A stretch of DNA of 64,000 bases from Myxococcota bacterium (lineage in GTDB: Bacteria > Myxococcota > B64-G9). Shown here piece after piece: positions 12,110 through 41,079 of this stretch; within the stretch, counting starts at the first letter, position 1, and each line of letters opens with the position of its first letter. The notes beneath the pieces were generated by a model, which saw only the letters and a program-made list of their open reading frames with translations, was not told the DNA's origin and searched no databases. Location: positions 186,001 to 250,000 of the forward strand of contig JAKLGA010000005.1 of NCBI GenBank assembly GCA_022710975.1, given 5' to 3'. Made by a program: the position numbers and the translations under genes.

Positions 12110-13789
12110 ATGCTGGAGCCCGGATACGACCCCATCGACGAGGCCAACGAGCGGCTGCGCAACGCGCTGACGCAGTTGAAGCAGGCCCGCTTGGTGCAGA
12201 AGGTGTTCATGGGCCTGGGCAAGGCGCTCACCCTGGGCGCCAGCCAGGAGGACATCCTGGGCACCATCGTGGAGGCGGTGCGATCCTTGTTCCCGGAAGC
12301 CTACTACCTGGTGCAGCTCGCGGACCCCAAGAGCCTGCTGCCCACCCTGGTGGAGCACCACGGCCCGCTGGCCGAGGGCGCGGCCCAGCACATCCACCTC
12401 AGCCGCTCGGCGGTGGCCAAGACCCAGCTCGACGACGCGCACCCCGAGTTCCGCAACATCGTCTGCTGGGAGCGCCTGGAGCGGCTGTTCGAGGGCACCA
12501 GCCACGCCATCCACGTTCCGCTGGCGGCCGACAACCAGCTCTTCGGTGCGGTGCAGGTCGAGGGCACCGAGGCTGCCCCGCTGGGTGACGACGACGAGGT
12601 GCTGCTGATCTCGCTCGCCAACCAGCTCGCGCTCTCGCTCCGCAACCAGCGCCTGCTGGAGGAGACCGCCTTCCTCAAGGACTACCTGGCCAGCATCCTG
12701 GAGCAGGCCAACGCGCTGATCGTGGTGACCGACATCAACCGCCAGATCCTGGTGTTCAACCAGGCCCTGGAGCGGCTGCTGGGCTTCCCCAAGGAGGAGG
12801 TGCTGGGCACCGACGTCTTCCTGTGGATCCCGGCCGAGGATCAGGCCCGCTTCGCCGAGGCCATCTCGGCCACCCTGTCCGGCCAGGCGGACGGCGGCGC
12901 GGTCGAGAGCCGTATGCGCGGGCGGGGCGGGGAGCCGATCCAGATCCAGTGGAGCCTGTCGGCGCTGCGCGACCAGCAGGGCGAGGTGGACAGCCTCATC
13001 CTGGTCGGGCGCGACATGACCCAGGTGCGCGCGCTCGAGCGCCAGATCATCGAGGCCGAGAAGATGGCCTCCCTCGGCAAGCTGGCCGCCGGGGTGGTGC
13101 ACGAGCTGAACAACCCGCTCACCTCCATCAGCGTGTACTCCGAGTACATCCTCAAGAAGATGCGCAGCGGCCAGGTGGGCCCCGGAGACGACGACAAGCT
13201 GGAGAAGGTGCTGGAGGGCGCGCACCGCATCCAGAAGCTGACCCGGGATCTGGTGTCCTACGGCCGGCCCTCGTCGGAGGAGCCAGAGCCGCTGCAGCTC
13301 AACGACCTGGTGGCCCAGGGCCTGAGCTTCTGCGAGCACATCATCCGCAAGCACGACGTGGAGGTCAGCCAGGATCTGTGCCGCGAGCTGCCGCTCATCC
13401 AGGGCAACCGCAACCAGCTCCTGCAGGTGCTCATCAACCTGGTGACCAACGCCTGCCAGGCCATGGAGGGCGGCGGTCAGCTCGGCCTGACCACCCGCCC
13501 CGGCCCGGGCGAGACCGTCGAGTTCCTGGTGGCCGACACCGGCGTGGGCATCCCGGCCAAGGACCTGCAACGCATCTTCGAGCCGTTCTTCACCACCAAG
13601 TCCGCCGGGGTGGGTACGGGGCTCGGGCTGAGCATCGTCAGCCGCATCGTCGAGCACCACCGGGGAACGATCTGCGTGGACAGCGAGCCCGGCGCGGGCG
13701 CCACATTCAGCGTGCGCTTGCCGGCCCGACCCTCGCCGCCCGAGGCGCCGCCGCCGGCGGGCGAGACGGACGGCCAGGAGACGCTGTGA
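12110..13789 (+). CDS. GAF-PAS sensor histidine kinase
   Basis: A 559-residue cytoplasmic histidine kinase with no membrane segment. A GAF domain (~40-190) is followed by a PAS domain (~200-315; ILEQANALIVVTDINRQILVFNQ). The HisKA box is GKLAAGVVHELNNPLTSIS, with its His near 333, and the HATPase domain carries N box LVTNACQAMEGGG, G1 VADTGVGIP and G2 GVGTGLGLS. ATG 12110-12112 was chosen because the GAF-associated helix starts shortly after it; a 5' extension to 12014 in the same frame has no recognisable content. The TGA overlaps the GTG start of the sigma-54 activator (GTGA at 13786-13789), so the two are made together. It is a likely signalling partner of the ATPase-less protein encoded before it. 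Confidence 0.92.
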   Translation: MLEPGYDPIDEANERLRNALTQLKQARLVQKVFMGLGKALTLGASQEDILGTIVEAVRSLFPEAYYLVQLADPKSLLPTLVEHHGPLAEGAAQHIHLSRSAVAKTQLDDAHPEFRNIVCWERLERLFEGTSHAIHVPLAADNQLFGAVQVEGTEAAPLGDDDEVLLISLANQLALSLRNQRLLEETAFLKDYLASILEQANALIVVTDINRQILVFNQALERLLGFPKEEVLGTDVFLWIPAEDQARFAEAISATLSGQADGGAVESRMRGRGGEPIQIQWSLSALRDQQGEVDSLILVGRDMTQVRALERQIIEAEKMASLGKLAAGVVHELNNPLTSISVYSEYILKKMRSGQVGPGDDDKLEKVLEGAHRIQKLTRDLVSYGRPSSEEPEPLQLNDLVAQGLSFCEHIIRKHDVEVSQDLCRELPLIQGNRNQLLQVLINLVTNACQAMEGGGQLGLTTRPGPGETVEFLVADTGVGIPAKDLQRIFEPFFTTKSAGVGTGLGLSIVSRIVEHHRGTICVDSEPGAGATFSVRLPARPSPPEAPPPAGETDGQETL

Positions 13790-16557
13790 GCGAGCCCGCC
13801 CCCAGCGCCGACCCGCGCGGTCGGCACTCGCTGTTCTGGCGGTTCCTGGGGGCCTTCCTGCTGGTGTCCGTGCTGCCGCTGGCCGGCGTGCAGGTGCTGG
13901 TCGGCCTGCAGCTCGAGGGCATCCGCGAGGCGGTCGACCAGGGCAGCCGGGCCTACGAGCTGAAGGCCGAGCGGCTGGCCGGACGCGTGGCCGCCTTCCT
14001 GCGCGCCTGCGAGGCGGACCTGCGCGCCCTGGCCGCGCTGCCGCGCAGCGATGAGGCCTACCAGCGCTTCGCCCGCGAGCGCACCCGCGAGGTGTGGGTG
14101 CGCTCCGGCACCGACGACAACCCGCGCGAGGAGCGCGGGACCTCACCGCTGTACCGCGAGGTGGCCTTCGCCGACGCCACGGGCCAGGAGCAGGTGCTCA
14201 TCGCGCGCGGCCGCCCCATGGGGCCCGCCCAGCGGCGGCTGGTGAGCGACCCCGCCCAGACCACCTACCGCTCCGAGACCTACTTCCAGGACGCGCTCGA
14301 CCAGCCGCCGGGCGAGATCTGGGTCAGCCACCTGACCGGCTTCCAGCTCACCAAGGTGCAGCAGCTCGGGCTGGAGCGGCTGCTGGCCCAGATGAAGGGC
14401 AAGGACCCGCAGACCCGGGCCATGTACCGCTACCTGCTGTACGAGCTCCTGCGGGCCGGCGGGGCGCTGGAGTACTCCAGCTCCTTCCAGGAGAAGGACC
14501 GCACCATGCTGGTCTACCGGGTGCCCGGGGAGGACTCGCGGGTGCTGGTGGAGGAGCCCCAGGGCGTCACCCCGGCCCAGATCCAGGCCCGCGAGCTGGA
14601 GCTGAAGGAGTTCATCAAGCGCCTGGAACCCGAGGACGTGGTGGAGGGCGAGCGCTACGACGGGGTGATCCGCTTCGCGCTGGCGGTGCGCGGGCCGGAC
14701 GGCAAGCCCGAGGGCGTGGTCAGCCTGGCGCTCGACCACGTGCACCTCATGCAGCTCACCCAGCACTTCAAGGCCATGGAGGAGGACGTCACCGTCTTCG
14801 CCGGCTACCGGGACGCCGACTACACCTACCTGTTCGACGACGAGGGCTGGATCATCACGCACCCCAAGCAGTACGAGATCCGCGGGCTCGACCACCTGGG
14901 CCAGCCGGTCCCGCCCTACACGCCCCGCTCGCTCAAGGCCGAGGTGCTCATCGGCCGGACGCCGGTCAACCTGCTCGAGCTCGACTGGAAGATGGGCGAG
15001 GGCTACCACGCGCTGGTGCTGGAGACCCGCGCCGGGCGCACCGGCATCGCCACCAGCAACAACCTGGGCGGCGTGCTGCGCACCCGCGTCTACAGCCCGA
15101 TCTTCTACGACCGCGGGGTCTACAAGAAGTACGGCATCTTCGGCGGCGTGATGATGGGCACCCGGGTGGACAAGTTCATCGAGGTGCTGCGCCAGATCAA
15201 CGGCGCCATCGGCACCCGCACCCTGCAGGCCCGGCGCGCGACCCTCGGCCCCATGCTGGCCGTGCTGGTCCTGGTGCTGCTGCTGTCGGTGGCGCTCGCC
15301 CGCAGCCTGGTGCGGCCCATCCGCGCCCTGGGGGAGGTGGCCCAGCGCATCGGCGCGGGGGAGCTCGCCACGCCCATCCCGGCCACAGAGCGTACCGACG
15401 AGCTGGGGGAGCTGGCCCAGGCCTTCGGCGGCATGACCCGCTCGCTGCAGGCCACCATCCAGGAGCTCGAGGCCCGGGCCGGCGAGCTCAAGCAGGCGCA
15501 GCAGAAGCTGCTCGAGTCCGAGCGCGACAAGCAGCGCGCGCTGGAGCGCGAGCTGGCCGAGCTGCAGCAGGAGGTGGCCCGGGCCACCTTCGCCAACATG
15601 CTGGGCGACAGCCCTGGCATGCGGCGCGTGCGGGAGGAGATCGTGCGGGTGGCCCCCAGCACCGCGACGGTGCTGGTGCTGGGAGAGAACGGCACCGGCA
15701 AGGAGCTGGTGGCCGAGGCCATCCACCGCAACAGCCCGCGCCGGGACAGGCGCTTCCTCAAGGTGAACTGCGCCGCCTTCAACGACAACCTGCTGGAGAG
15801 CGAGCTGTTCGGCCACATGAAGGGCGCCTACACCGGGGCCAGCGCCAGCCGCAAGGGCCTGTTCGAGATGGCCGACGGCGGCACGCTGCTGCTCGACGAG
15901 GTGGGCGACATGTCGCTCGAGATGCAGAAGAAGCTGCTGCGCACGCTCCAGGAGGGAGAGATCGTGCCGGTCGGCTCCACCCGCGTGCTCAGGGTGGACG
16001 TGCGCCTCCTCGCCGCCACCAACCGCGATCTGGCCCAGCGCATGCGCGAGGGCGCGTTCCGCGAGGATCTCTACCACCGGCTCAACGTGATCCAGATCCG
16101 GGTGCCGCCGCTCCGGGAGCGGCGCGAGGACATCCCGCTGCTCGCCCGCTTCTTCATCCAGAAGTACGCCGACAAGGAGGGCCGCACCCCGCCGCTGCTG
16201 GATGCCGAGGCCGAGCGCTTCCTGCTCGAGTACGCCTGGCCTGGCAACGTGCGGGAGCTGGAGAACGCCATGGAGCGGGCCGTCATCCGCGCCATCGGAG
16301 CGGTGCTGCGGGTGGCCGACTTCCAGCTCGAGGCAGGTGAGAGCGCCGGCCCGGGAGCCGGAGAGCTCGACAAGGCCCTGGCCGAGGAGCTGAGCCTCGA
16401 TCAGCTCGAGCAGCGCTACATCGAACGGGTCCTGACGCGCTGCGGCGGAAACAAGCGCGCGGCCGCCAGGTTGCTGGGCATCGGCTACAATACCCTCTGG
16501 CGCAAGCTCAAAAAGATGAAGGGCGAGGGCTCGTCCGACCCGCCCGAGATGGAATGA
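13786..16557 (+). CDS. Membrane-anchored sigma-54-dependent activator with periplasmic sensor
   Basis: A 923-residue one-chain sensor and transcription activator. A transmembrane helix (residues ~17-40) leads to a periplasmic region of about 440 residues that resembles a double Cache sensor. A second transmembrane helix (~486-508; [16 protein letters not shown]) is followed by a HAMP domain ([15 protein letters not shown]), a coiled coil and a sigma-54 AAA+ domain. The AAA+ domain has Walker A GENGTGKE, a GAYTGA loop in place of GAFTGA, Walker [10 protein letters not shown] and the R-finger region. A Fis-type HTH ends the chain ([23 protein letters not shown]). There is no receiver domain, so signal input seems direct through the membrane. 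GTG 13786 overlaps the kinase stop. A sigma-54 promoter lies 115 bases after the gene, in front of the DUF6600-like gene. Confidence 0.9.
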
Positions 16558-16579
16558 GTCCCTATTCCCAAATGGAATG
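16549..16579. promoter_or_regulatory. Candidate enhancer site for the membrane sigma-54 activator
   Basis: ATGGAATG occurs twice (16549-16556 and 16572-16579), and ATTCC at 16564-16568 with GGAAT at 16574-16578 forms an inverted repeat around five bases. The site overlaps the end of the activator gene and lies about 100 bases upstream of the -24 element at 16672, the usual place for a dimeric Fis-type activator to bind. Supported by position and symmetry only. Confidence 0.4.
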
Positions 16580-16671: not shown

Positions 16672-16687
16672 CGGCACGGCGGTTGCA
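16672..16687 (+). promoter_or_regulatory. Sigma-54 promoter (-24/-12) of the DUF6600-like gene
   Basis: CGGCACG, four bases, then TTGCA: the only departure from the core consensus TGGCACG-N4-TTGCW is the first base. The invariant GG (16673-16674) and GC (16685-16686) have the correct 12-base step. Transcription would start near 16697, and a GGAGG ribosome binding site precedes the ATG at 16728. It sits directly downstream of a sigma-54 activator gene. Confidence 0.75.
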
Positions 16688-16727: not shown

Positions 16728-18257
16728 ATGAACGCTCGAAAGATGCCTTTCCTGGCCGTCCCGGCTCTCCTGGCCCTGGGATTGCTGCCCGCGCAAGGGG
16801 CGCTGGCCCAGACCGAACCGGACGAGTTCCTGGACGATCAGGCTGCGCCTCCGGACAGCGGCTCGGGCGGCGCGGTGTGGGCCGAGGAGGGCGATCGGGT
16901 GGCCTACGACGACGGCGCCGTGGCCGAGGACATGCCCCAGGATCGCCCACCGGTCGAGGGCGAGGTGGACGCGACCTTCTTCTTCGACTACTTGGCTCCC
17001 TACGGCGACTGGATGTGGACCCCCGAGCACGGCTGGGTCTGGCATCCGACCGGCGTGGACACCGACTGGCGGCCCTACTCCACCGGCTACTGGATCAACA
17101 CCGAGTACGGCTGGACCTGGGTGGCCGACGAGCCCTGGGGCTGGGCGCCGTTCCACTACGGGCGCTGGTCCTGGATGGATCCGGTCGGCTGGATCTGGGT
17201 GCCGGGCACCACCTGGGGCCCGGGCTGGGTGATGTGGCGCTACTCGGACACCTACATCGGCTGGGCGCCGCTGCTGGCGGGCTACGACTGGTGGTTCGGC
17301 TGGGCCTTCTACCCGGTGTTCTACTCCCACTGGCTGTTCGAGGAGTGGGGGCACTTCGGCCGGCACCACCACGGCCACCGCCACCACTACAGCGGCCGGG
17401 ATGAGGCCCGCGACCACTTCCGGCACACCTACTTCCCGCGCGGCTGCCGGGACGCCTCGAACCCCGCCTGCCAGCGCGGCCCGGCCAGCCGGCTGGTGGA
17501 GAAGCGCTCGGGCTTCCCGGTCGAGAGGATGCCGGTGCGCAACCTGGCCGCGGAGCCCCGCAAGGTCAGCCGCTCGGAGCTGTCCAGGCTCGGCCTGAAG
17601 GGCAACGAGCTGACCATCTACAAGCCCTCGGTGGGCAAGTCCGGGCTCGGCACCCTGGGTGGCAACCCCTCGAAGCCGGGTGCCCGCCCGCGGGTGATCG
17701 ACTTCGGGATCGCGCCGGACAACTCGCGCGCGCTGCGGCCGGCCGACTCCGACGGGAGCGGGAGCTACGACGGGCTGCGCCGCCGGCCCACCCCCGGCGC
17801 GGACATCGAGCCCAACCGGCCGCCCAAGGTCAGCCGCGACCGTCCGGCCGGGAACCGCATGCCTGGCTCGATCGTCTCCGGTCCCGACGGCATGCGCCCG
17901 GCGCCGAGCAACAACCGCCCGGGCTTCGCGCCCAGCAACAGCCGCCCGGGCTTCGCGCCCAGCAACAACCGCCCGGGCTTCGCGCCCAGCAACAACCGCC
18001 CGGGCTTCGCGCCCAGCAACAACCGCCCGAGCTACTCGCCCGGCCACAACAGCAAGCCCGGCTTCGCCCCCAGCCACAACAAGCCCTCCGGCTCGGGTGA
18101 CCGGCCGTCCTTCAAGCCCTCGAGCAGCGGCTCGCGCGACAGCGGCCACCGCTCGTCCTCGGGCGGCGGGGGCGGCGGCCACCGGTCGTCGTCCGGCGGC
18201 GGCGGCAGCAAGGGCTCGTCCTCCGGCGGCCACTCCTCCGGCGGCAAGCGCAAGTAG
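16728..18257 (+). CDS. Secreted Trp/Tyr-rich DUF6600-like protein with Asn-Pro repeat tail
   Basis: A 509-residue exported protein. A signal peptide (MNARKMPFLAVPALLALG, cut near ALAQ) leads to an acidic stretch. Residues ~85-205 are a DUF6600-like domain made of repeated aromatic strands such as YGDWMWTPEHGWVW, PWGWAPFHYGRW and GWIWVPGTTWGPGWV. A His-rich patch (RHHHGHRHHYS) follows. The C-terminal half is low in complexity: five near copies of a nine-residue FAPSNNRPG unit, then Ser/Gly-rich sequence ending in basic residues. DUF6600 proteins have no proven biochemical role that I know of; the composition suggests a cell-surface or periplasmic structural protein. The upstream sigma-54 promoter suggests inducible expression under the membrane activator encoded just before it. 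ATG 16728 follows ACGGAGG. Confidence 0.8.
   Translation: MNARKMPFLAVPALLALGLLPAQGALAQTEPDEFLDDQAAPPDSGSGGAVWAEEGDRVAYDDGAVAEDMPQDRPPVEGEVDATFFFDYLAPYGDWMWTPEHGWVWHPTGVDTDWRPYSTGYWINTEYGWTWVADEPWGWAPFHYGRWSWMDPVGWIWVPGTTWGPGWVMWRYSDTYIGWAPLLAGYDWWFGWAFYPVFYSHWLFEEWGHFGRHHHGHRHHYSGRDEARDHFRHTYFPRGCRDASNPACQRGPASRLVEKRSGFPVERMPVRNLAAEPRKVSRSELSRLGLKGNELTIYKPSVGKSGLGTLGGNPSKPGARPRVIDFGIAPDNSRALRPADSDGSGSYDGLRRRPTPGADIEPNRPPKVSRDRPAGNRMPGSIVSGPDGMRPAPSNNRPGFAPSNSRPGFAPSNNRPGFAPSNNRPGFAPSNNRPSYSPGHNSKPGFAPSHNKPSGSGDRPSFKPSSSGSRDSGHRSSSGGGGGGHRSSSGGGGSKGSSSGGHSSGGKRK
17907..18041 (+). repeat. 27-base in-frame tandem repeat (FAPSNNRPG units)
   Basis: About five near-identical 27-base units (CGCCCGGGCTTCGCGCCCAG core) encode FAPSNNRPG or close variants in the tail of the DUF6600-like protein. 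The copies differ at few bases, so the array is recent or kept alike by recombination; copy number may vary between strains. Edges are approximate. Confidence 0.8.
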
Positions 18258-32345: not shown

Positions 32346-32853
32346 TGGGCCGTAAGCCGGGTTCTGTCCCCCGCCTTCGTTACCTCCGGCGGGGTGGCGC
32401 CCATTCATCTAGGACGGCCGTTGCCAGCCGCCTCGAGCGGTCGACCCAGGGACACCGGGCGGGCAACCCGTCCCCGCCCCGCGGACGAACCGCGTGGGCA
32501 GGGGCCCTTGCGAGACCTTGCTCCGGGTGGGGTTTACCGTGCCCGGGGTGTCACCACCCCAGCGGTGCGCTCTTACCGCACCGTTTCACCCTTGCCCCCC
32601 GGCCGGCCGAGGCCGGCCAGGGTGAGGGGGAAGACCCCGAGGGGCGTCCCCCATGCGCACGCCCTCGCGCGCCGAAGCGCTCGGGGGCGGGCGGGCGGTC
32701 TGTTCTCTGTGGCACTTTCCTTGGAGTCGCCTCCACTGGCCGTTGGCCAGCACCCTTGCCCTACGGAGCCCGGACTTTCCTCTCGCCTCCCCGCTCCCCC
32801 CGGAGGGGGCGCGGGATTGCCAGCGGACGCCTGGACCACACCGACGAAGCCGC
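32331..32853 (-). ncRNA. rnpB: RNase P RNA, bacterial class A
   Basis: The minus strand carries the conserved cores in order: GAGGAAAGTCCGGGCTCC, then AGAACAGACCGCC, then GGTGAAACGGTGCGGTAAGA, then AAACCCCACCCGGAGCAAG, then TAGATGAATG and ACAGAACCCGGCTTA. The ends pair as helix P1 (GGCTTCG with CGAAGCC), and six T residues at 32330-32325 directly after it complete an intrinsic terminator. At about 520 bases it is longer than the usual 350-450; the extra length is in G+C-rich hairpins around the P12 region. Ends are set by P1 and are accurate to a few bases. Confidence 0.96.
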
Positions 32854-32928
32854 AACCTGACAAAGAGCTGGAACGTCCAAGAGCATGGCAGATGCCCACG
32901 CCAAAAGAAAGCGCGAACTGCCCTGGAC

Positions 32929-32958
32929 TTGGCATTTGCTCGGAGATCGGATTATGAT
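32929..32958 (+). promoter_or_regulatory. Sigma-70 type promoter of the repeat-containing envelope gene
   Basis: TTGGCA (32929-32934) and TATGAT (32953-32958) are 18 bases apart, 31 bases before the ATG at 32990, with CTGGAGG as ribosome binding site in between. It is divergent from rnpB, whose own promoter I could not define. Confidence 0.65.
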
Positions 32959-32989
32959 GGTCTGGCTCGCGAGACCCCTGGAGGATGCC

Positions 32990-34420
32990 ATGAAGAGGGC
33001 CCCCTTCCTTGCCGCGTGGGTGTCGTGCCTCGCCGTGCTCGTGGGTGCGCCGGTCGCCTGGGCCGCCCCCCTGACCCCGACGCCCAAGACCACCCACGCG
33101 GCGCTCACCTTGAACACGGACGGGAGCTTCGGCTTCCAGGTCATGCCGGGGAAGCCGCTGAGCGTGGATCTGGTCGGCCCGGGCTCGCTGGTGCTGACCG
33201 TGCGCCTCAACAGCGCGAAGAAGCTGCCCTCCTTCACTGGCGAACTGGAGATCCGGCGGGCGGGCAAGGTCCTCAAGAAGGACAGGCTCAACCTGTTCCG
33301 CTCCAGGGTCGGCGCCTACAAGGAGGACCGGCGCCTCCAGCCCTCCAATCCCAAGTCGTTCAAGCTCAAGGTCCCTGACGGGCTGCAGCACTACACCGTC
33401 TCCCTGAAGGCGGCCAGGGGCGTCAGCATGACCCTGGGGATCAGCTACGACTCCAGCGCCGACCAGTCCGCGGCCATGCCCGCGGACGACATGGCCCTGG
33501 TCCCGCTGGTGGCGCCCGGCGGGGAAGGGCCCGGCATGGACGACATCCCCCTGGTGCCCCTGGCTCCGGTCGACAGCGGCAAGCCGCCGGCCGACGCCGT
33601 GGCCATCGCGGACAAGCCGGCGGACAAACCCGTGGTCAAGCCCGCGGACAAGCCCGTGGTCAAGCCCGCGGACAAGCCCGTGGTCAAGCCCGCGGACAAG
33701 CCCGTGGTCAAGCCCGCGGACAAGCCGGCGGACAAGCCGGCGGACAAGCCCGCCGTGGTCGCGGTGGCTCCGGTGGACAAGCCGGCTGCCCCCGGAGGAC
33801 CGGAAACTGCCAAAGACGCCGATAAGCCCGTCGAGGCGAAGCCCGGAGTCGAGACCATCGAGGGTCAGGCAGCCCAGCCGCCCGAGGTGACCGGCGAGGC
33901 CACGGAGGTGCCCGCGGTCGTGTCCCTGGGGCTCAAGCTCGGGCAGATCAGCCCCTTCCAGGCGATCGGCACGACCTCCTTCACCGGCGTCTTCGACCTG
34001 CGCTGGATCATCCCCGCCACCGACGGCAACCTGCACCTGGGCGTGGAGGTGGGCTACCACCAGTACGCGCTCGCGGTCACCGGTCGCGATCTCGAGGCCG
34101 AGCTCAAGGTGATCCCGGTGGCCCTGCAGCTCTTCTACGCCATCCCGCTGGCCAGCATCTTCCAGCTCTTCTTCGGCGCCGGCGGCGACATGTACGTGGT
34201 CATGAGCGAGACGCGCTACACGAACGATCCGGGCTCGGCGCTGTCGGGCACGTCGTTCGCCTTCGGCGGCCACGTCTGCGCCGGCGGGGAGCTCGAGCTG
34301 GGCCCCGGCTTCCTCGGCCTGGAGATTCGCGCCGGCTTCACCAGCGCGGACGTGACGGGCATGTCCAACGTGAACGTGGCCGGGCTGTCCAGCGTGCTGG
34401 GCTACCGCCTCGAGTTCTGA
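32990..34420 (+). CDS. Exported protein with KPADKPVV repeats and likely C-terminal beta-barrel
   Basis: A 476-residue exported protein. The signal peptide MKRAPFLAAWVSCLAVLVGAP is cut near AWA-AP. Residues ~30-155 form a beta-rich domain (KPLSVDLVGPGSLVLTVRL). A flexible Pro/Lys/Asp-rich linker (~205-260) carries about five copies of KPADKPVV and then KPADKPAD units. The last ~170 residues alternate short amphipathic strands (GVEVGYHQYALAVTGRDL; FFGAGGDMYVVMSE) and end in LGYRLEF, the terminal Phe typical of outer-membrane beta-barrels. The linker could span periplasm or peptidoglycan. ATG 32990 is supported by the signal peptide, the ribosome binding site and the promoter; the frame upstream overlaps the promoter. 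Function unknown. Confidence 0.75.
   Translation: MKRAPFLAAWVSCLAVLVGAPVAWAAPLTPTPKTTHAALTLNTDGSFGFQVMPGKPLSVDLVGPGSLVLTVRLNSAKKLPSFTGELEIRRAGKVLKKDRLNLFRSRVGAYKEDRRLQPSNPKSFKLKVPDGLQHYTVSLKAARGVSMTLGISYDSSADQSAAMPADDMALVPLVAPGGEGPGMDDIPLVPLAPVDSGKPPADAVAIADKPADKPVVKPADKPVVKPADKPVVKPADKPVVKPADKPADKPADKPAVVAVAPVDKPAAPGGPETAKDADKPVEAKPGVETIEGQAAQPPEVTGEATEVPAVVSLGLKLGQISPFQAIGTTSFTGVFDLRWIIPATDGNLHLGVEVGYHQYALAVTGRDLEAELKVIPVALQLFYAIPLASIFQLFFGAGGDMYVVMSETRYTNDPGSALSGTSFAFGGHVCAGGELELGPGFLGLEIRAGFTSADVTGMSNVNVAGLSSVLGYRLEF
33613..33752 (+). repeat. 24-base tandem repeat (KPADKPVV units)
   Basis: Units of AAGCCCGCGGACAAGCCC plus GTGGTC repeat about four times nearly identically, then decay into KPADKPAD units. 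Location is in the linker of the envelope protein; edges are approximate. Confidence 0.85.
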
Positions 34421-35725: not shown

Positions 35726-37182
35726 GTGTTCACCCACGGAGCCAAGCTGTGGCTCAAGCTGCTGGTCGCCTTCCTGGCGTCCACCGCCCTCATCCTGGCC
35801 GGCATCGGCTACCTGGCCTTTCGCGCGGCGGCCCAGGCCATGGAGGCCCAGCTGGGCGACAGCCTGATCGCCGTGGCGCGCGTGTCCGCCGGGCAGGTGG
35901 GCAAGCCGCGCGCGCTCAGGCTGGAGCCGGGCGACGAGCAGAGCCGCACCTACAAGAACCTCCAGGAGCGCCTCGAGGCGCTGCGCGCGGCCACCGAGGT
36001 CGAGCGCATCTACCTGTTCGACCCCCGGGGCCGGGCCCTGGTGGACTCGGCCGGCGAGCTCCGCGTGGGCGAGGAGATCGTCCGGCTGTCGGCCGACCGG
36101 GCCGAGCTGCACGGCGTGTTCGCCGGCCAGCCGCGCTCCAGCCTGCTGTTCACCGGCCGGGACGGCGCGCGCTTCAAGTCGGGCTTCGCGCCCGTGCGGC
36201 TCGAGGGCAGCCCGGAGGTCGTGGCCGCGGTGGGCGTGGACGGCTCGGCCCGCTTCTTCGAGCCCCTGGCCGACCTCGGCCGGGTGCTGGGCCTGGTGGG
36301 GGGGCTGGCGCTCCTCCTGGTGGGGCTGATGAGCGTGCTGCTCGCGCGCCGCATCACCCAGCCGCTCCAGCGGCTGGTCGAGGCCGCCCGGGCCATCGGC
36401 CGCGGAGAGCTGGAGGGCGAGATCGGGGTCGAGACGCGCGACGAGATCGGCGTGCTGGCCTGGACGCTCAACGACATGCGGCGCTCCATCCTGGCCCGCG
36501 ATCAGCAGCTCCAGATGATGCTGGCCGGCATCGCCCACGAGGTGCGGAACCCCCTGGGTGGCATGGCGCTGTTCGTCGGGCTGCTGCGCGAGGAGGTGGC
36601 CGATCGCCCCGAGGCGCAGAAGCAGCTCGAGCGCGTGGCCACCGAGCTCGGCTACCTGGAGCGCGTGGTGCGGGACTTCCTGGAGTTCGCCCGCAAGCGC
36701 CCCCCCGCGCTCGAGGTCGTCGACGCCCGCGAGGAGCTGCAGGCCGTGGCCACGCTGATGTCCGCCGAGGTGGCGCAGGCGGGCCTCGTCCTGGAGGTGG
36801 CGCTCGAGGGCGACGCGCGCGGCGCGCGCTGGGATCGGGAGCGCGTGCGGGGCGCGCTGCTCAACCTGCTGCGCAACGCCGTGCAGGCTTCCAGCCCGGG
36901 CGGCCGGGTGACGCTCGCGTGCCGCGTGGACGGCGCGGGCGGGCCCCTGGCGCTCGAGGTGCGCGACCAGGGGGTCGGCATCCCGCCCGAGCTCCGCGAC
37001 AAGGTGTTCGATCCCTTCTTCACCACCCGGCAGAAGGGCACCGGCCTGGGCCTGGCCCTGGTGAAGAAGGTGGCCGAGGCCCACCGCGGCCGGCTCGAGC
37101 TCCAGTCGGAGGTGGGCCGCGGGACCACCGTGCGCATCCTGTTGCCCCGGGACGAGCTCCCGGGCTCTGGGGAGGCAGGCTG

Positions 37183-37183
<1 letters not shown>
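35726..37183 (+). CDS. Membrane sensor histidine kinase (partner of the sigma-54 response regulator)
   Basis: A 485-residue kinase. Two transmembrane helices (~10-30 and ~190-212) flank a periplasmic sensor of about 160 residues with Cache-like or PAS-like character ([22 protein letters not shown]). HAMP follows ([22 protein letters not shown]). The HisKA box is [19 protein letters not shown], with its His near 271, and the HATPase domain has [23 protein letters not shown] and [12 protein letters not shown]. The start is GTG 35726. The TGA overlaps the ATG of the sigma-54 regulator (ATGATGG region at 37181-37185), which marks them as a cognate pair of the NtrB/NtrC or ZraS/ZraR type. Confidence 0.93.
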
Positions 37184-38583
<1,400 letters not shown>

Positions 38584-38616
38584 CGGTTTTCTGAGGCGGC
38601 TTGGGGATTTCCGCGA

Positions 38617-38727: not shown

Positions 38728-38743
38728 TGGCACGCTCCTTGCG
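38728..38743 (+). promoter_or_regulatory. Sigma-54 promoter (-24/-12) of the coiled-coil/beta-barrel operon
   Basis: TGGCACG, four bases (CTCC), then TTGCG: the -24 block matches perfectly and only the last base differs from TTGCW. The invariant GG (38729-38730) and GC (38741-38742) have the correct step. The start would be near 38754, 16 bases before the ATG at 38770, with GAGAGG between them. Confidence 0.85.
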
Positions 38744-38769
38744 AAACACCCCGTGCGAGAGGTGCTCCG

Positions 38770-39870
38770 ATGAGCTGGCTCCGCGCCTTTGTGTTTGGCT
38801 TGACCCTGCTCCTGGCCGCTCCGGCCCTGGGGCAGGCGCCCGGCCCGCGGAGCCGCATCGACGAGATCTCCTCCCTGCGCCTCGACCTCGAGCGGCTCTC
38901 GGAGGGGCGGCGGCAGGTGCTCGCGCAGCGCGACGCCCTGGCCGGGCGCCTGGAGGCGCTGGCGCGCGACATCGAACGCCGCAAGTCCTCCGGCGCGGGC
39001 GAGCGCCTGCTGCCCGACTTCCAGCTGCTGGCGGATCTTCGCTCGAGCCAGGAGCTGAGCGAGGCGGTCAGCGCGCTGAACCGCGAGATCGGCCAGCTCG
39101 AGCGCACCTACCGCGAGCGCCTGGAGCGTCTGGGCGCGCTGTACGACGAGGCGGTCGCGGGCACGGTCGGCGCGCTGCGCGCGGCGGGTGCGGACGAACG
39201 GGCGGACCTGACCCGGGTGCTCGCGCGGCTGCGCTCCGAGCGGGAGACCCTGCGCCAGGAGCTCGCGCCGGACCGGGAGCCCGCGGGCGCCGGCGGCCCG
39301 GAGTCCGGCGTGAACCTGCTGGCCTCCGACGATCCCGAGGAGCTGGGCGAGCGGGCGGACGCGGTGCGGGATGATCAGGACAAGCTGCGCCGCCAGCTCG
39401 CCTCGCTGGACGGGCGCATCGCCTCCCTGGAGCGCGAGCTGCGGCTCGAGCGCGAGATGCGCGACTTCCTCAGCGACCAGGATCTGTTCAACGAGGGTTC
39501 GCGCGTGCTGCGCGTGCCGCGGGGCGCGGAGGCCGGCAAGACCGACTTCACCAACGACGGCCGCACGGACGACGCTCTGCCCGCCGAGGGCGACGTGGAC
39601 GGGGCCTACGAGGGCGGCGGGGATCCGTCCCCGGGGGCCGGCGGGTGGGGCGGCGGGGAGGGACAGACGGCCATGCCCGACCAGCCCGGCGGCGAAGGCC
39701 GCCTGCCCGTGGGCGTGGAGCAGGGCGCAGCCGCCACGCCGGGCGGCGACCGGCAGCGCGGCCTGCCCGCCCTGCGGCTCCAGCGCGACGCCCTGATCGA
39801 GCAGCTCAAGCGCCTGCAAGTGCTGCACGACCGCCTGCGCGAGAAGGCCGAGGAACTCACCCAGGAGTGA
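38770..39870 (+). CDS. Exported coiled-coil protein of unknown function
   Basis: A 366-residue exported protein with signal peptide MSWLRAFVFGLTLLLAAPAL, cut near LGQA. Three coiled-coil segments (~25-75, ~90-150, ~185-245) contain heptads such as IDEISSLRLDLERLSEGRR and QLASLDGRIASLERELRLE. A Gly/Pro/Asp-rich stretch (~260-325) and a short final helix follow. I recognise no family; it resembles periplasmic scaffold proteins paired with outer-membrane barrels. ATG 38770 is fixed by the signal peptide and the sigma-54 promoter upstream. The next gene, a likely beta-barrel, starts 39 bases later and is probably cotranscribed. Confidence 0.75.
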   Translation: MSWLRAFVFGLTLLLAAPALGQAPGPRSRIDEISSLRLDLERLSEGRRQVLAQRDALAGRLEALARDIERRKSSGAGERLLPDFQLLADLRSSQELSEAVSALNREIGQLERTYRERLERLGALYDEAVAGTVGALRAAGADERADLTRVLARLRSERETLRQELAPDREPAGAGGPESGVNLLASDDPEELGERADAVRDDQDKLRRQLASLDGRIASLERELRLEREMRDFLSDQDLFNEGSRVLRVPRGAEAGKTDFTNDGRTDDALPAEGDVDGAYEGGGDPSPGAGGWGGGEGQTAMPDQPGGEGRLPVGVEQGAAATPGGDRQRGLPALRLQRDALIEQLKRLQVLHDRLREKAEELTQE

Positions 39871-39909: not shown

Positions 39910-41079
39910 GTGCTCCCCCGCGACAGGCGACCCTGGTCCGCTGGCCTGCTCGCCGGCCTCCTGGTCGGCGGCCTGGCCGCCCCCGCGGTCCAGGCGGAGG
40001 GCTGGACGCTCAGGCTGCGCGCGCAGGCCGGGGAGGAGTACGACTCCAACGCCCAGCGGGTCCAGCGCGTGACCGGCGCGACGGGCAGCGAGGACGGCGC
40101 GGAGACGCCGGGCGACTTCCTGACGCGCCTGCTGCTGCAGGCCGCGGCCGGGTACACCGGGCCGGAGCTCGACTTCCACGCCGACTACGCCTGCGGCGCC
40201 AAGCTGTTCTACCGCGAGACCAGCGAGCACCTGGTGGCCAACCAGCTCGAGCTCAGCCTGCTGCACCGGCCGCAGCCCACGCGGCAGATCGGCCTGCGCG
40301 TCGGGTTGCGGGACGCCACCCAGGCCACCCACGGCAGGGACTACCTGCTCGGCCACCTGGACGCCGTCGGGCGCCTGCGCCTGCTCGCGCCCCTCGTCCT
40401 TGAGGTCAGCGCGGGCGGACGCGGGTTCTACTTCAAGCCGGACGACGACGGGGAGCGCGAGCCCGGCGCGCCGCGCTTCAGCCACGCCGGCCCCAGCGCG
40501 GGCCTGTCGCTGCAGGCCAGCCTGGGGGAGGGCTGGAGCGCCTGGCTGGGCTACGCCTTCGATGTGCGCTTCTTCGACGATCTCGCCCGGGTGGCCAGCC
40601 CCGGGGGGGAGGGCACGCTGCCGGGCAGCCGCGACCGCCAGGACGCTCGCCACGCGCTGGGCGCCCACGTGCGCTACCGCTCCACCTGGTGGGACGAGCG
40701 CCAGCTCATCGCCCAGCTCGGCTACACCTTCACCGCCAACGGCTCCAACAGCCTGGGCTCCACCGCTCGCTGGCACAAGCTCGAGGCGGTGGTGTCGCTG
40801 GAGCTTCCGGCGGAACTCACCCTGCACCTGATGGGCTCGGTGCAGCTCACCGACTTCCCGGACGGGCTGTACCTGGATCAGTCGTCCTACCAGCCGGACG
40901 CGGACGAGAACGAGAACGTCTTCGTCAGCCGCCTGGCCTGGCGCTTCTGGGAGTCGCTCCAGCTCGTGGCCCAGGTGGCCGTGTACCGCAACACCTTCGC
41001 CGTGGAGGACGCGGAGCAGCCCGCCTTCGCCCGCGAGACCTACCAGCTGGGGCTGGCCTGGGACTGGTCCGCCTGGTGA
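39910..41079 (+). CDS. Likely outer-membrane beta-barrel protein
   Basis: A 389-residue exported protein with signal peptide (WSAGLLAGLLVGGLAAP, cut near VQA-EG). The mature part is made of alternating amphipathic strands throughout, for example GWTLRLRAQAGEEYDSNAQ, ELDFHADYACGAKLFYRE and WSAWLGYAFDVRFFDDL, and ends in LGLAWDWSAW with an aromatic last residue. YDSNAQR at the start of the barrel is common in long-barrel proteins of the BBP2/OMP_b-brl type. The start is GTG 39910. It is the second gene of the sigma-54-driven pair and converges on the Yip1-like gene. Confidence 0.78.
   Translation: MLPRDRRPWSAGLLAGLLVGGLAAPAVQAEGWTLRLRAQAGEEYDSNAQRVQRVTGATGSEDGAETPGDFLTRLLLQAAAGYTGPELDFHADYACGAKLFYRETSEHLVANQLELSLLHRPQPTRQIGLRVGLRDATQATHGRDYLLGHLDAVGRLRLLAPLVLEVSAGGRGFYFKPDDDGEREPGAPRFSHAGPSAGLSLQASLGEGWSAWLGYAFDVRFFDDLARVASPGGEGTLPGSRDRQDARHALGAHVRYRSTWWDERQLIAQLGYTFTANGSNSLGSTARWHKLEAVVSLELPAELTLHLMGSVQLTDFPDGLYLDQSSYQPDADENENVFVSRLAWRFWESLQLVAQVAVYRNTFAVEDAEQPAFARETYQLGLAWDWSAW

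Follow-up and report, generated by a model that had tools for sequence, protein, structure and literature searches.

The A-signal of Myxococcus is made up of amino acids and peptides that are released by proteases. A review describes this signal as being detected by SasS, with its genes activated by SasR (PMC4880591). A table in a second paper lists Mxan_1245 as sasR, describes it as an NtrC-like activator and cites the sasN and sasS papers for it; the reference list of that paper includes a 1998 title that calls SasN a regulator preventing gene expression (PMC8570273). A third source places SasN among the developmentally up-regulated regulators of M. xanthus and ties SasS to A-signalling (PMC6791715). 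The literature searched offered no explanation of how SasN holds the A-signal pathway inactive in growing cells.

The window considered here (the whole stretch of DNA that was analysed, 64,000 nt, G000:C25:186001-250000) belongs to a genome of 7.13 Mb whose relatives, according to named records of the same gene family, are Myxococcota. It contains a SasS-like sensor histidine kinase gene at 35726-37183 (+), in which Pfam finds a weak sCache-like sensor, HAMP, HisKA and HATPase_c, and a SasR-like NtrC-type response regulator gene at 37183-38583 (+), in which it finds a receiver, a sigma-54 AAA+ domain with a GSFTGA loop and a Fis HTH. These are followed by a gene for an exported, SasN-like coiled-coil protein of 366 aa (CC, 38770-39870, +), recognized by alignment, synteny and a helical model. 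By tblastn, the kinase is 41-60% identical to its counterparts at related loci (43-47% in the Myxococcaceae) and the regulator 57-73% (58-59% in the Myxococcaceae); the recognition helix of the regulator is near-invariant, with the same 12 residues in 30 of 31 orthologues. Identity and synteny thus make the HAMP-containing kinase and the NtrC-type regulator orthologous to the Myxococcaceae pair. A CC alignment scan placed a CC locus in M. xanthus AM003, and in the single 8.97 Mb contig of genome G049 CC lies at 1.493 Mb, approximately the expected place of gene 1245, with three genes between kinase and regulator, including those for a haem-oxygenase-like protein and a chemotaxis receptor. In M. 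xanthus, sasN presumably follows sasR, and we take sasS to be MXAN_1249 and the SasN protein to have a hydrophobic N-terminus and a leucine zipper. Because gene order, the number of genes from kinase to regulator, genome position and protein character all fit, the kinase, the regulator and CC are probably the orthologues of Myxococcus SasS, SasR and SasN, the last name being one that we infer from synteny and the sasR locus tag. A sequence-only reading of this DNA had called both CC and the protein encoded after it unrecognised, which is wrong for CC, as synteny assigns it to the SasN family of Myxococcus. Upstream of the kinase gene, at 32885-34420, the window also encodes an exported protein that contains PADKPVVK-type repeats and matches OMP_b-brl weakly; several related loci have it in the same place, immediately before the kinase. 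A sigma-54-like string, TGGCACTTTCCTTGGA at 32710-32725, lies 160 nt before the window's 32885 gene and is without the GC dinucleotide.

CC has no Pfam match above the cut-off and no NCBIfam name, and a search of its model against the PDB found nothing with an E of 0.001 or below. The model is helical throughout (pLDDT 78, pTM 0.48), the region at about 250-325 being poorly predicted. In the alignment the start methionine is invariant or near-invariant and is followed by a hydrophobic leader; the start at 38770 is backed by both the alignment and the signal peptide, and CC is accordingly predicted to be exported by way of its N-terminus. The next gene (BB, 39910-41079, +) encodes a protein of 389 aa that matches no Pfam or NCBIfam family; its model is a predicted outer-membrane beta-barrel of 16 long strands (pLDDT 82.5) with a signal-peptide-like N-terminal helix at 9-22, and its PDB matches are to general porins, the best having an E of 1e-8 at 12% identity. 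A Yip1-domain gene follows BB on the opposite strand.

The sequence-only reading had treated CC and BB as one operon for an exported coiled-coil protein and a barrel. The models support both descriptions and the two genes are just 39 nt apart in the window, but the operon is not universal. Among the 40 loci that have both genes the gap is at most 160 nt in 10, 161-900 nt in 24 and more than 900 nt in 6, while no BB was found at nine of the 49, in four of which the available DNA ends less than 700 nt past CC. In the Myxococcaceae the two genes are parted by an antisense lipoprotein gene, seen in the gap of a Myxococcus-type locus, so co-regulation of BB is not general. BB has no sigma-54 site of its own at 9/10 in any of the 40 loci (0/40). 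In three family genomes other genes lie between CC and BB (L043 4929-8860, L044 7857-9671 and L046 8446-9603); these include genes that look RelE-like and DUF1016-like by eye and one for an EGF-like lipoprotein.

The predicted promoter of CC is a -24/-12 sigma-54 site of the form TGGCACG-CTCC-TTGCG, TGGCACGCTCCTTGCG at 38728-38743 (+), identified by motif search and conservation. Compared with the myxobacterial consensus TGGCACG-N4-TTGC(T/A), as given in PMC9765219, it has a single mismatch, at the final base. The stop codon of the regulator gene is at 38581-38583, so that 144 nt separate this gene from the site, and another 26 nt separate the site from the CC ATG at 38770, which is preceded by AGAGG. 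Transcription from sigma-54 promoters starts about 12 nt past the -12 C, and the CC transcript would thus start near 38754 with a leader of about 16 nt, which fits the "16 bases" given by the sequence-only reading. At 35 of 49 loci, among them L055, L100 and other loci of the Myxococcaceae, the distance from the -12 C to the first start codon in frame is 17-18 nt, so the predicted transcript there would begin about 5 nt before that codon, giving a nearly leaderless sasN message.

Motif counts within the window were set aside as proof of a promoter, being too weak alone: TGGCAC-N5-TTGCW with up to 2 mismatches gives 17 matches, against 23.6 expected from the mean of shuffles. The 12-base consensus with up to 1 mismatch gives 3 matches against 0.49 expected (2 of 100 shuffles reach 3), and these include both promoters that had been named from sequence beforehand. 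Genome-wide, the sigma-54 motif with up to 1 mismatch has 203 matches against 71 for the reversed pattern, and the genome has one gene for RpoN (C4:142757, E 8.7e-62).

Relatives of CC occur in 25 of 58 Myxococcota genomes, as a single copy in each. For 17 relatives' loci, taken from the two best CC families, the highest-scoring site ahead of CC reaches 10/10 in seven, 9/10 in nine and 8/10 in one. In 15 of the 17, the regulator gene precedes CC on the same strand; of the remaining two, L051 is cut by the contig end and L045 shows no regulator within its 1.6 kb. A CC alignment scan of one genome per species across 84,980 species gave 49 loci from named records, among which 11 of the 17 recur. 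All 49 have an upstream site, 23 at 10/10, 25 at 9/10 and one at 8/10. Control patterns (spacer one base longer or shorter, reversed, and six shuffles) reach 9/10 in 0-2 of the 49 windows, with 0 and 1 of 49 for a spacer of 4 or 6 in place of 5, respectively, and the background is 17 matches at 9/10 over 968,551 other positions. Many of the Myxococcaceae among the 49 loci are close relatives; the GG (-24) and GC (-12) dinucleotides are nevertheless kept at all 49 while the letters of the spacer vary, which favours selection over mere recent ancestry. Three CC loci are more distant: in L058 and L060 the match is preceded by a 9/10 site, and no 9/10 site was found upstream at L059, where the regulator is in synteny. 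Weak CC matches in G054, G025, G019 and G020 were left out of the promoter survey. A near-consensus sigma-54 site behind an NtrC-type gene, as originally proposed, therefore holds up, with one mismatch here and a score of at least 9/10 at 48 of 49 CC loci. The interpretation of 38728-38743 as a putative sigma-54 promoter with CC as its target is well supported, because it draws on position and conservation, and not on the motif alone. The promoter of CC is universal in the 49-locus set; the CC-BB operon is not. One record, L093 (BNCN01000002.1), titled Comamonas sp. KCTC 72670, seems to be mislabelled: its 969 kb contig carries the Myxococcaceae version of the locus.

Directly after the regulator stop codon, and 114 nt before the promoter, is a predicted activator element, CGGTTTTCTGA-N9-GGGATTTCCG at 38584-38613 (+), found by upstream comparison and genome search. 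It consists of two AT-rich half-sites of the form CRGWWWWCYG, 20 nt apart. In the window's family the half-sites are mostly 19-20 nt apart, as against 30-31 nt in the Myxococcaceae and 18-19 nt at other loci, or about two or three helix turns. Activator sites for sigma-54 promoters are usually 80-150 bp upstream, according to PMC7910581, and the zone of the paired element, 75-145 nt upstream of the site, fits this placement. The element was first seen by eye in upstream sequences and then tested genome-wide. An unbiased motif run on eight family loci had returned TTGTAaTACAA, which is the conserved end of the regulator coding sequence and not the element; a later run was seeded from one half-site spotted by eye.

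A genome-wide search for the strict pair RGWWWWCY-N11/12-RGWWWWCY gave five perfect and 12 one-mismatch copies. Four of the five perfect pairs precede a sigma-54 site of at least 9/10 at a distance of 69-115 nt; one of the four is the window's own, making the independent tally three of four new perfect copies. None of the 12 one-mismatch pairs has a sigma-54 site of 8/10 within 250 nt, searched in both directions. The element is degenerate, as the strict pair scores no better than shuffles at three of eight family loci (L061, L062 and L063). The Myxococcaceae pair (30 nt apart, up to 3 mismatches) finds the sasN site at 0 mismatches in four of five genomes, plus three matches with 3 mismatches, and the 20-nt-spaced pair has no matches in two genomes. 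These searches (the 30-nt form in five genomes, the 20-nt form in two) gave no further Myxococcus target, the A-signal-dependent gene 4521 for example. We regard the pair as a well-supported candidate for a conserved upstream element of the promoter.

The three new perfect pairs with a sigma-54 site suggest additional targets. They precede a gene for a serpin lipoprotein (C27:318117; PF00079, E 1e-99), one on C9 for an exported FecR-domain protein behind a TPR-barrel gene, and one near the end of contig C28 for a small protein that appears ribbon-helix-helix-like by eye. Of the ten serpin loci in the family that are near full length and at least 50% identical, nine have a sigma-54 site scoring 8/10 or better, but only five have the pair at 15-16/16; at ten weaker or partial serpin loci the site reaches 8/10 in three and a pair of 15 was found in none. 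The serpin is thus a probable target of the element in some of its copies only, and the link is a partial one. This genome has three serpin genes (G000 C27:318117, C24:249346 and C23:515537), and a relative has seven matches. At L114, a TPR and barrel protein with a weak TPR_Slam match (1-1482) is encoded directly before a FecR-domain gene with the activator pair.

A second arrangement of the same design had been proposed at 13.8-18.3 kb of the window, and this too is borne out. A gene for a membrane-bound one-component activator (13786-16557, +; by Pfam a weak dCache, HAMP, sigma-54 AAA+ and Fis HTH) is followed by the sigma-54 site CGGCACGGCGGTTGCA at 16672-16687 (+), found by motif search, and then by the envelope gene at 16728-18257 (+), which encodes an exported DUF6600 protein according to Pfam. 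A predicted activator dyad, TGGAAT...TATTCC, read by eye from upstream sequences, lies at 16550-16568 (+); in relatives it takes the form TGGAATC...TATTCCGTTTTGG, unlike the element of the first module. With its site at 8/10 or better in eight of nine family genomes and a different upstream dyad, the second module does appear to be independent of the first.

Since a conserved activator element and a sigma-54 promoter lie directly behind sasR, the simplest circuit is one of negative feedback. The kinase encoded before the regulator would phosphorylate it, and the phosphorylated regulator would bind the pair at 38584-38613 and activate sigma-54 polymerase by looping, so that CC and, in this genome, BB are transcribed from 38728-38743. 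Once exported, CC would be expected to restrain the kinase from the periplasm, as SasN damping SasS, and active SasR would thereby make its own extracytoplasmic inhibitor. BB would be co-induced as an envelope partner and, more speculatively, could be the outer-membrane partner of SasN. We give this overall reading, a SasR-driven sigma-54 promoter of CC (and here of BB) with negative feedback through a SasN-like CC, a probability of about 0.65; control by the adjacent regulator, the feedback and the role of BB are the parts that we infer from sequence.

It is also conceivable, if rather unlikely, that the module is a positive one, with CC and BB serving together as effectors in envelope assembly or transport, and the reported inhibition by SasN an indirect effect. 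CC is a long helical periplasmic protein by prediction, porin-like BB adjoins it in the window and at 10 of 40 other loci, the further predicted targets include exported proteins, and sigma-54 genes lean towards the cell exterior, according to PMC3162934; all of this would suit a pair of effectors. The 1998 title, however, describes SasN as preventing gene expression (as listed in PMC8570273), and the promoter of CC is kept at many loci where BB is separated or not found. We consider it less probable still that the promoter is real and driven mainly by another of the many NtrC-like activators that such genomes encode, the adjacent regulator being there by chance. Another activator is possible since CC keeps its promoter where no regulator was found beside it (L065, L098, L101 and L104, for example), and the developmental up-regulation of SasN in M. 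xanthus, reported in PMC6791715, falls at a time when several activators are active. The same-strand regulator at 15 of the 17 relatives' loci, with its near-invariant recognition helix, argues for the adjacent gene instead, and the element is unlike the Nla28 half-site CT(C/G)CG(C/G)AG. That TGGCAC-N5-TTGC is a meaningless chance string is very improbable, for although the looser motif is not enriched within the window alone, sites at 48 of 49 loci, strict controls and a variable spacer all speak against it.

It is common for a sigma-54 promoter to lie beside an NtrC-type gene, and this locus is related to one already known. A search of the open-licence literature, to which the original sasN and sasS papers do not belong, found no sigma-54 promoter at sasN. 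As far as that literature shows, the new elements are a putative sigma-54 promoter at sasN that is widely conserved together with its activator pair, the barrel gene linked to sasN, and the serpin and FecR genes as candidate targets. For the negative-feedback reading, the conserved promoter and element at sasN predict a loop that can be tested by point mutations in M. xanthus; through the element, genes other than sasN become candidate targets of SasR, and the SasR regulon can be approached in species for which only metagenomic data exist. A broader proposal, which we make tentatively and with some doubt, is that the Sas circuit is an old, phylum-wide means of sensing the envelope and proteolysis, in which SasR and sigma-54 would drive the SasN brake, the barrel and surface serpins that restrain proteases, and from which A-signalling may have grown.

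If the feedback reading is right, the circuit resembles CpxA/CpxR/CpxP, an envelope feedback system in which, as proposed here, a response regulator induces an exported inhibitor of its own kinase; the likeness is one of circuit, with no sequence relation claimed, and the locus differs in its predicted dependence on sigma-54. BB resembles the general porins in its predicted 16-strand outer-membrane barrel, signal peptide and aromatic C-terminus, but it is like them by fold only, with 8-14% identity and TM-scores of about 0.3-0.5. Nla28 and other M. xanthus enhancer-binding proteins likewise use tandem 8-bp half-sites upstream of TGGCACG-N4-TTGC(T/A), typically by 80-150 bp, whereas the half-site given for Nla28 in PMC9765219 differs from the CRGWWWWCYG found here at spacings of 18-20 or 30-31 nt. 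Nearest of all is the Sas locus of the Myxococcaceae. There, three genes intervene between kinase and regulator and CC is parted from BB by an antisense gene, whereas in the window kinase and regulator adjoin and BB follows CC after 39 nt; what the window shares with SasS/SasR/SasN of Myxococcus xanthus is a histidine kinase, an NtrC-type regulator and, directly after the regulator, a predicted exported coiled-coil protein, all apparently single-copy orthologues.
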